Source: Gaiellales bacterium
GTDB taxonomy: Bacteria; Actinomycetota; Thermoleophilia; Gaiellales; JAICJC01
DNA length: 64,000 nt
Reading direction: 5' to 3'
Assembly: GCA_036273515.1 (NCBI GenBank)
Contig: DASUHM010000008.1
Location: forward strand, 62,001-126,000
This document shows positions 22,082-26,329 of the stretch, piece by piece. The notes below the pieces were generated by a model that saw only the letters and a program-made list of their open reading frames with translations, searched no databases and was not told the DNA's origin. Position 1 is the stretch's first letter. The number at the start of each line of letters is the position of its first letter. The position numbers and the translations under genes were made by a program.

Positions 22082-22189
22082 GGGGACTGTCCCGCCGGGT
22101 GGGGATCGTCCCCACGCGACGCACCAAAAGGGGTCTGACCCCGCTTGGTGCGTGTCCCGATCCGAGTGGGGGGACCATGGTTCCCCCAC
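22082..22189. repeat. Cluster of four palindromes between the cupin gene and icmA
   Basis: Four hairpins fall within 108 bp: GGGGACTGTCCC (22082-22093); GTGGGG/CCCCAC (22099-22115); ACGCACCA...TGGTGCGT enclosing GGGGTCTGACCCC (22119-22153, type B); and GTGGGGG/CCCCCAC enclosing ACCATGGT (22166-22189). The third is nearly identical to the copy at 59860. The cluster directly follows the icmA stop on the minus strand. Confidence 0.8.
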
Positions 22190-24524: not shown

Positions 24525-24938
24525 ATGTACGGCCTCAACCATCGCTTCACCACCGACCTCGCCAACGTGACCCCGATCGGGGCCCGGGCGACCGTGCTCG
24601 TCATCGATCGCGACCCCCTGACGCTCGGCCTCGTCGAGCAGGCGGTCGCCGGCCACTACGAGATCGTCGTCGCCGGCGACGCCAGCGAGGCCCTCTCGCT
24701 CGTCGACGAGCACCGCCCCGACGTCGTCCTCGTCGACATGACGCTCGGCAACGCCGAGATCGCCATGATCACCGTCACGCTCGCCGCCTGCGACGAGCTC
24801 GACTCGACCCCCGTGATCATGATCGACCCCGATCAGCCCATGAACGCGATGGGCCTGCGCAAGCGCATCGACGACGCGATCCGCGTCGCCCGCCGCGTCT
24901 ACCTGGGCGGCGGCCTGCGCAACCGGCTCGCAGCCTAG
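24525..24938 (+). CDS. Stand-alone receiver-domain protein
   Basis: A 137-residue CheY-like protein with no output domain. It has the acidic pocket VLVIDRDPL and the phosphoacceptor Asp in DVVLVDMTLG. The strand that normally ends with the conserved Thr/Ser and Lys is altered (PVIMIDPDQPMN), so phosphorylation may be weak or absent. A basic C-terminus (RKRIDDAIRVARRV) follows. No kinase gene is adjacent. It is flanked by unusual hairpins on both sides. Confidence 0.75.
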   Translation: MYGLNHRFTTDLANVTPIGARATVLVIDRDPLTLGLVEQAVAGHYEIVVAGDASEALSLVDEHRPDVVLVDMTLGNAEIAMITVTLAACDELDSTPVIMIDPDQPMNAMGLRKRIDDAIRVARRVYLGGGLRNRLAA

Positions 24939-24946
24939 CGAGAACC

Positions 24947-24979
24947 GGGGACTGTCCCCGCTGGACGGGGACAGTCCCC
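24947..24979 (+). terminator. Inverted palindrome pair downstream of the receiver gene
   Basis: GGGGACTGTCCCC and GGGGACAGTCCCC are exact complements separated by GCTGGAC. They form one 13-bp stem, and each arm is itself nearly palindromic. They start 8 bp after the stop codon. There is no T run. The half-site also occurs at 22082. Confidence 0.5.
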
Positions 24980-24984
24980 AGCTC

Positions 24985-25097
24985 AGATGGTTGATCGGGA
25001 AGTCCCGTGGGTCCTGGGCAGCCGCAGCACCGCCTCGGCCCGAACCCCCGCCAGCGGTCTGACGTCCAGGCGGACGGGCCTTCCCGATCAACCATCT
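24985..25097. repeat. 113-bp inverted repeat element before the MFS gene
   Basis: AGATGGTTGATCGGGAAG (24985-25002) is matched exactly in inverted form at 25080-25097, and similarity continues inward (CCCGT on both sides). The 77-bp interior contains no ORF of note. The element could fold as one long hairpin or be a MITE-like insertion. Its right end is 3 bp from the first codon of the MFS reading frame, which has no normal start codon. Confidence 0.65.
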
Positions 25098-25099
25098 AG

Positions 25100-26329
25100 G
25101 GTGCGTGCATCGGCAAGCAGCGCACCATCCTCGTCCTCGCGATCGCGTCGCAGGCGGCCTACTCGCTGATCTCGTTCGGGCTGCCGGCCATCGCCCTCCA
25201 GATCCGCGACCGGCTCGACGTCGGCGTCGCCGGCTTCGGGGCCGTGTACGCCGCCGTCAGCCTTGGATCTGCGATCGCGCTCATCCCCGCGGGGATGCTG
25301 GTCGACCGGCTGGGCGCCCGCGGGGTGCTCGTGATCGGCGGCGTCGTGAACGGCCTGGGGACGCTGGCCGCCGCGACGCTCACGAGCCCGTTCGCCTTCT
25401 CGGCAGCGCTGCTCGTGGCCGGGATCGGCGGCTCGGCGGTGCCCGTCGCCGGGATGTCCGCGCTCATGCGCGCGTTCGCGCCCGAGAAGCGCGGATCGGT
25501 GATGGGCTGGAGGCAGCTGGCGGTGCCGCTCGGAGGCACGATCGGCGCGATCATGCTGCCGCTCCTGGCCGACCGGGGCGGCGTCCCGCTCGCGATGGCG
25601 GCCTGTGCGGGCGCCGTGACGGTCACGTCGGTCGCCTTCGGCCTGCTGGTCGAGCACCCGCGCGCGGAGGGCGCAGGCGAGGCCCGCGGCGCCCTGCGCA
25701 GCGTCTTCCGCGTTCCCGGCATCCGGCCCGCCCTGACGGTCGCCTTCGTCTACATCATCGGCCTGACCGCGGTGCTCACGTACTACATCCCGGCGGTGCA
25801 GGCCGAGGGCCTCACCCGCTCCCAGGCCGCGATCGGCTTCACGCTCGTGAACATCGTCGCCGGGCTCTCGCGGCCGATATGGGGCCGGCGAGCCGACCGC
25901 GGTGGCGGCACCCGGCGCACCCGCACCCTGCGCGAGACCGGCATCGTCGGCGCCGCCGCGGCCGTCGTCATGCTGCCCGCCCTGCACGCGGGCGTCGTCC
26001 CCGCGCTCGTGACGACGGCGGTGCTCGCCTTCGGCGTCTTCGGCTTCAACGGCCTCGTGTACCTGCTCGTCGGCGAGCTGGCCGGGCAGGCCCGCTCCGG
26101 CGTCGCCGTCGGGGTCGCCTCGACCGTGATCTTCGGGGCCGGCGCGATCGTCGCGCCCGTCGCCGGCCTGGCCGTCGAGAACCTCGGCTACGGCGCGCTC
26201 TGGGCGATGACGGCGGCCGCCGGCGCGGGCGGCGCGTTCATCGCGTGGCGCTGGCTGCCGGCCCCGGGCCGGACGGCGCCGGCAGGCGGCAAGCGGCTCG
26301 CAGGCGCTCCCGGCTGCCCGAACCCCTAA
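25100..26329 (+). CDS. MFS transporter with unclear start
   Basis: Major facilitator with about 12 membrane segments. The family motif GMLVDRLGARG follows TM2, and the second half repeats it as IWGRRADRGGG. Coding character begins at KQRTILVLAIASQAAYSL (from about 25115), which is a proper TM1, but there is no ATG, GTG or TTG upstream in frame before the TAG at 25097-25099. The first GTG (25244) would remove TM1. The coordinates give the open frame after the stop. Either a rare start such as ATC at 25109 is used or the 5' end was lost. Substrate unknown. Confidence 0.75.
   Translation, partial: GACIGKQRTILVLAIASQAAYSLISFGLPAIALQIRDRLDVGVAGFGAVYAAVSLGSAIALIPAGMLVDRLGARGVLVIGGVVNGLGTLAAATLTSPFAFSAALLVAGIGGSAVPVAGMSALMRAFAPEKRGSVMGWRQLAVPLGGTIGAIMLPLLADRGGVPLAMAACAGAVTVTSVAFGLLVEHPRAEGAGEARGALRSVFRVPGIRPALTVAFVYIIGLTAVLTYYIPAVQAEGLTRSQAAIGFTLVNIVAGLSRPIWGRRADRGGGTRRTRTLRETGIVGAAAAVVMLPALHAGVVPALVTTAVLAFGVFGFNGLVYLLVGELAGQARSGVAVGVASTVIFGAGAIVAPVAGLAVENLGYGALWAMTAAAGAGGAFIAWRWLPAPGRTAPAGGKRLAGAPGCPNP

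Follow-up and report, generated by a model that had tools for sequence, protein, structure and literature searches.

The window, a stretch of 64,000 nucleotides from the genome of a Gaiellales bacterium (G000; 4.07 Mb in 98 contigs), carries a response-regulator-like gene with a receiver-domain-like product (24525-24938) directly upstream of an MFS transporter gene, and this neighbourhood is conserved in two congeners, G002 and G001. Between the two genes lies an inverted repeat (AGATGGTTGATCGGGAAG) whose arms, at 24985-25002 on the plus strand and 25080-25097 on the minus strand, match without mismatch, against a mean of 0.01 expected by chance. A preliminary description of this DNA had reported an 18-bp perfect inverted repeat framing 113 bp and followed at once by TAG; coordinates, span and far-above-chance status were confirmed, with the in-frame TAG at 25097-25099 sharing its T with the right arm. 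Allowing one mismatch, the arms reach 24 nt (24985-25008 and 25074-25097; 96% complementarity). The RNA fold of the element was computed at -68 kcal/mol (z = -6.1 relative to 200 dinucleotide shuffles), no protein-size frame lies within its 111 bp, and a search of Rfam with 8 loci (21,860 bases) returned no match at E ≤ 1. The features are collected in Table 1.

Table 1. Features at the junction of the hairpin element and the MFS gene (positions in the window).
Feature	Position	Strand	Evidence
Separate older palindromic repeat, GGGGACTGTCCCC...GGGGACAGTCCCC	24947-24979	.	Same site occupied in G002
Left target duplicate, reads CA (inferred degenerate TA)	24984-24985	.	Homologous to the TA of other copies; G002 empty site CCCC-TATGGT
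MITE-like foldback element, GATG...CATC, 111 bp, single long imperfect hairpin	24986-25096	+	Arms, fold, multiple copies, G002 empty site
Right target duplicate TA, also bases 1-2 of the -10 box	25097-25098	.	Junctions and G002 empty site
Putative -10 box TAGGGT of the MFS gene (TATGGT in G002, TACGGT in G001)	25097-25102	+	TAnnnT layout in relatives
ATC where the relatives have their start codon (G002 ATG, G001 GTG)	25109-25111	+	Alignment with relatives
MFS transporter frame, open, stop TAA	25109-26329	+	Frame; dN/dS against G002

The older palindrome belongs to a family of its own, with about ten further sites in the genome and a partial copy at 22082-22094. The tetranucleotide AGCT at 24980-24983, beside the left duplicate, is absent from G002 and unexplained.

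The closest relative carrying the MFS gene is G002, the MAG 'Thermoleophilia bacterium GZL_FP_2_bin.148' of the same genus. Its locus keeps the order of the window (response-regulator-like gene, GGGGACTGTCCCC hairpin, MFS gene) and lacks the element: the empty site reads CCCCTATGGTGCCTGCGATGGGC, against CCCCAGCTCA, the element and TAGGGTGCGTGCATCGGC in the window. The alignment places a TA at the right junction, whereas the left duplicate reads CA, which counts against a clean TA duplication in this particular copy.

The stop-to-stop frame of the MFS gene (25100-26329; 409 amino acids) has no ATG, GTG or TTG ahead of the coding sequence for TM1, as had been noted; the earliest is a GTG at 25244 (codon 46), beyond TM1. 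G002, whose site is empty, has its start ATG 7 nt downstream of the TATGGT box; in the window, one base of this spacer was lost, and the aligned codon, 12 bases from the element, is ATC. The start was thus lost by substitution and not by insertion, since the ATC holds the position occupied by ATG in G002 and GTG in G001, and the earlier suggestion that the insertion removed the start codon was not borne out. The rival view, that the gene lost its start to the insertion and is now dead or truncated, would fit the 12 bp between the element and the missing start, the lack of a usual start codon before codon 46 and the second in-frame ATG of G002, which lies inside TATGGT, so that one possible upstream start was split. 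We nevertheless consider this improbable: the aligned codon is present, and the frame runs over 409 codons without a stop or frameshift relative to G002, with dN 0.064, dS 0.381 and dN/dS 0.17, and with no excess of private amino-acid changes when G001 is used as the outgroup (nine in G000, nine in G002). These alignments show the MFS gene to be still under constraint.

Leaderless translation in E. coli is cited in PMC3898074 as having a strict need for ATG, so ATC should be a weak start. With the frame intact and under constraint, the change to ATC may have arisen lately, may be tolerated if ATC serves as a weak start, or may be an assembly error. Were the ATC a consensus or assembly error for a true ATG or GTG, the locus would otherwise be an ordinary MITE insertion; a single base decides the matter, the genome lies in 98 contigs and the gene looks functional, but true substitutions relative to G002 are present in the neighbouring bases as well, and we regard such an error as unlikely, though well within consideration.

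When G000 was queried with the element, tens of additional matches were obtained. A set of 35 copies was assembled, 31 complete ones by an automatic arm rule and four divergent ones by eye; these copies measure 87-318 bp and bear GATGGTTGAT-like arms at both boundaries. A covariance model built on 16 short copies matched 38 times in G000, 29 in G002, 14 in G001 and three in G004 at E ≤ 0.01; 7/101 relatives had at least one match, and matches at E ≤ 1e-4 in 11/299 genomes of the class. A scan of G000 for the end pattern yielded 66 sites, against none in the reversed control. Across the class (Thermoleophilia), the end sequence TAGATGRTTGATYSS was detected in 95/399 genomes, and a match of its reversed control was seen in one genome. 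Elements in other genera share these ends and have unrelated interiors, and weak matches in distant genomes proved to be same-ended. Foldbacks exemplified from other genomes are mostly 154-166 nt long, some 46-76, and the smallest forms are bare, TA-flanked, perfect palindromes of 28 bp (L254, G004 C93:4231-4262; L255, G001 C35:8722-8753). Four long copies (L003, L015, L016 and L073) contain nested perfect hairpin modules (for example GTGCAAGCCC/GGGCTTGCAC and CTGCGATCACGCAG), present in some copies and missing in others. Several long copies at contig ends are 98-100% identical over 125-260 nt, a sign that the family has been mobile in recent times and has fragmented the assembly. An exact 22-mer scan of public genomes gave no match; three end matches on viral contigs were regarded as chance, each standing singly and lacking a nearby partner end with which it could form an element.

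Of the sites in G000, the joined flanks of 30 besides the window were searched in G002 (part of them also in G001), so that 31 of 32 sites were covered, C12:51013 being left out. Seventeen of the 31 aligned across both flanks without the element, although in two of these about 30 or 60 other bases separate the flanks in G002; two held another form of the element and 12 gave no two-sided match. For the congeners, 40 regions were taken from G002 and G001, of which seven lacked an element by the arm rule and were excluded, leaving 33 copies. The dinucleotide TA, which makes up 0.9% of flank positions as background, stands at 15/35 right and 8/33 left junctions in G000, and, in the same order, at 18/33 and 21/33 in G002 and G001 taken together; in 12/65 copies it occurs on either side. 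C precedes the left TA in 19/28 cases and G follows the right TA in 20/30, and in some copies the duplicated target could be the four bases CTAG rather than TA. Other copies end at stop codons of adjacent genes.

Two orthologous sites were found to be occupied in both genomes. At one (L019, G000 C2:163557; L197, G002 C86:4072), the copies differ in stem subtype; at the other (L012, G000 C69:2569; L217, G002 C156), they lie in opposite orientation, through inversion in place or a second insertion. Recombination between arms or repeated insertion would give such differences.

The multiple copies, the empty site, the TA duplication and the existence of insertion sequences with matching ends (see below) support assignment of the window element to a dispersed mobile family that behaves as a MITE. 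The preliminary description had entertained a MITE-like element, and this part of it stands: the element is neither single-copy nor kept at the same spacing in relatives. Literature searches on leaderless genes with MITEs and promoters, on MITEs of Thermoleophilia, on IS982 MITEs and on IS982 with CTAG yielded no account of the hairpin family within these topics.

A TAnnnT motif about 12 bp before the start is described as the mark of leaderless genes, which are common in actinobacteria (PMC3160421), and for M. tuberculosis a -35 motif is stated not to be needed (PMC3898074). Six of the eight MFS relatives (G002, G001, G004, G040, G005 and G020) have the start codon 6-8 nt after a TAnnnT, the layout being not evident in G003 and G052; in the window, the right end of the element coincides with the TA of the TAGGGT box, and the ATC lies 6 nt beyond it. 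Landing at putative -10 boxes is a habit of the family and not of the window copy alone, as far as sequence layout can tell. In G000, 7/67 junctions adjoin a TAnnnT followed after 4-10 nt by the start codon of an open, GC3-rich frame, against 0.008 predicted by running the same junction test over 90,334 flank positions; in G002 and G001, 9/33 copies adjoin TAnnnT plus 4-10 nt plus a start codon. Both sets together give 16/68 copies, among which the window copy, with its ATC, is not counted. The box pre-exists in the empty G002 site at the window and at five others (TATGGT, TAGAGT, TAGCCT, TACCGT, TACCGT and TAGGGT), so the element hit existing -10 boxes. Selection against insertions within genes must add to this pattern, alongside target choice. 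That the element carries its own promoter was ruled out, the -10 being already there in the empty sites. An apparent preference of the boxes for the right end (6/7 in G000) was dropped, as G002 and G001 gave four right and five left.

Unusually, stems and interiors vary between copies and between genera, yet the two arms of a copy remain complementary. Over stem bases 11-20, arm-to-arm agreement within a copy was 0.855 for the 33 copies of G002 and G001 and 0.806 for 33 of G000; shuffling the arms among copies lowered these values to 0.458 and 0.471 (maxima of 5000 shuffles, 0.594 and 0.648), with 28/33 and 23/33 distinct left decamers, respectively. Of the arm tests in G000, the first kept all 35 copies, the second dropped three with ragged inner arms and the third dropped L005 and L019. 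In a fixed-structure count on the 16 short copies, both sides had changed in 14/20 pairs, where shuffles gave 9.0 and slid controls 2-4. Part of this pairing signal reflects two stem subtypes, GATCGG and GATTCC, and within the CGG subtype the excess persists at a smaller size (0.891 versus 0.826). Transposase binding alone would preserve sequence, not complementarity.

One-sided changes lean toward G.U pairs on the plus strand of the element (44 versus 15, and 38 versus 8 in other genomes); counted once per position and change, the excess falls to 17 versus 7 and 15 versus 11. Selection on RNA or strand-biased C-to-T mutation could produce it. These G.U changes, the co-varying arms and the very stable fold are what a conserved regulatory leader of the MFS gene would display, with ATC or another rare codon as the true start, as had also been proposed. 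But the same gene does without the element in G002 and G001, copies stand at the 5' and 3' ends of unrelated genes, and the hairpin precedes the -10 box, so that the predicted mRNA, leaderless and starting further downstream, should exclude it. With the G.U excess smaller under single counting and open to a mutational origin, we hold a leader function to be very improbable indeed.

A broader reading of the complementarity, which we advance tentatively and with slightly less than even confidence, is that foldbacks throughout Thermoleophilia are united by the 10-bp end GATGRTTGAT, a TA target and self-complementarity and not by sequence, the palindrome being kept through arm-to-arm correction or selection on the folded strand. 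Stems and interiors would be free to diverge as long as each copy remained a near-perfect hairpin, even when reduced to the 28-bp palindrome. Such elements would settle in -10 boxes since a GC-rich genome offers few TA dinucleotides and these mark TAnnnT promoters and TAG stops; as the duplicated TA would rebuild the box, the sequence upstream of many leaderless genes would be swapped without silencing them.

The search for a mover started from G059, in which several contigs stop about 50 bases inside one repeated sequence bearing these ends. A 60-base query from this repeat retrieved insertion sequences 988-991 bp long from G363, G172 and G184, which belong to other genera of the class than G000; 13-17 of their end bases match. 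All three, and likewise a fourth in decay, are flanked by TA at either end. For the decayed 881-bp element of G060, neither Pfam nor NCBIfam yielded a match and plasmids none of use, and its possible kinship to the insertion sequences is indicated by ends and TA flanks. All three transposases pass the NCBIfam model NF033520 for IS982 (143.7-158.5 bits; cut-off 130) and are 69-80% identical to one another. Their stem subtype is GATTCC versus GATCGG in the window copy. In one region (L271, 1495-1508), an IS982-like insertion sequence directly adjoins the end of another same-ended element in a tandem insertion.

Known IS982 ends begin with AC in 57/69 elements as tabulated in PMC7335449, an ending that is usual but not universal in the family, and those of the partner elements begin with GATG. 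The 66 end sites of G000 included no intact insertion sequence bounded in this way: one pair of ends lies 0.8 kb apart (C69:81688/82500), but one of the two belongs to a 127-bp copy. The 60-base query likewise found nothing in G000, G001 and G002, with two candidates scored per genome. From end and transposase similarity, an IS982-family transposase is the likely mover of the hairpin family.

The classical TA-duplicating family with a CTAG preference is IS630/Tc1-mariner, and TA duplication in a CTAG context is given as an IS630 signature in PMC2170065. Its transposase domain, DDE_3 (PF13358), was not found in G000, G001 or G002, and the DDE_3 matches in G004, G043 and G258 lack GATGRTTGAT ends, which the IS982-type elements possess. 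A mover of this kind is accordingly highly improbable, and an IS630-type partner was rejected for want of any DDE_3-type transposase with these ends in the six genomes.

Taken together, the data make it highly probable, in our judgement, that a non-autonomous MITE inserted at the TA within the -10 box of an MFS gene of leaderless type, that the box was re-formed, that an IS982-family transposase was the likely mover and that the start codon was lost in a separate substitution. The hairpin at 24986-25096 belongs to a family with GATGRTTGAT ends that inserts at TA and duplicates it; here, the target was the TA of the TAnnnT box of the predicted leaderless MFS gene. The duplicated TA re-forms the box on the gene side as TAGGGT, so the promoter would not be destroyed and only the sequence upstream of the -10 would be displaced. 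The element would be mobilised in trans by an IS982-family transposase such as those of the same-ended, TA-flanked insertion sequences in other Thermoleophilia, and a one-letter substitution would separately have turned ATG or GTG into ATC at the conserved leaderless start. We infer promoter activity and the leaderless mRNA from the layout of box and start codon.

The locus ties together a transposable hairpin with conserved pairing and a TA-targeting candidate mover of IS982 type whose ends are unusual. It also suggests a simple principle: elements that seek TA would come to lie in the -10 boxes of leaderless genes, and the genes would go on functioning. Should this hold, the upstream halves of numerous promoters in an uncultured lineage of soil actinobacteria have been rewired by a mobile element, as comparison of congeners makes visible. 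The ATC at a putative leaderless start offers a small natural test of the start-codon need.

The hairpin is a MITE-like insertion, which at this locus stands in a predicted leaderless promoter. ERIC elements are about 127 bp long and, to our knowledge, have no known mover, unlike the present family, for which a candidate mover was found. Set beside the latter by description, without sequence comparison, the ERIC elements of enterobacteria are likewise palindromic, intergenic and dispersed (as outlined in PMC10969869). The same source describes the Correia elements of Neisseria as intergenic MITEs with long inverted repeats, near genes and tied to promoters, and reports inversion in place, points of resemblance to the present family; Correia ends bring their own promoters, whereas in the present family the target already possessed the -10 box. 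The partner elements agree with the IS982 family as described in PMC7335449 in transposase model, length (about 1 kb) and DDE gene (about 300 aa), and differ in their GATG instead of AC ends and in the TA duplication of all copies seen. Finally, the IS982-derived MITECca01 of Cardinium, in the account of PMC9769881, is similarly short, without a transposase, with IS982-like ends, in many mostly intergenic copies and of lineage-specific spread. It is portrayed there as one uniform sequence of about 240 bp with an intact parent in the genome; the present family, by contrast, varies in stem and interior between copies and genera, ranges over 28-318 bp and duplicates TA, and its parent was seen only in other genera.
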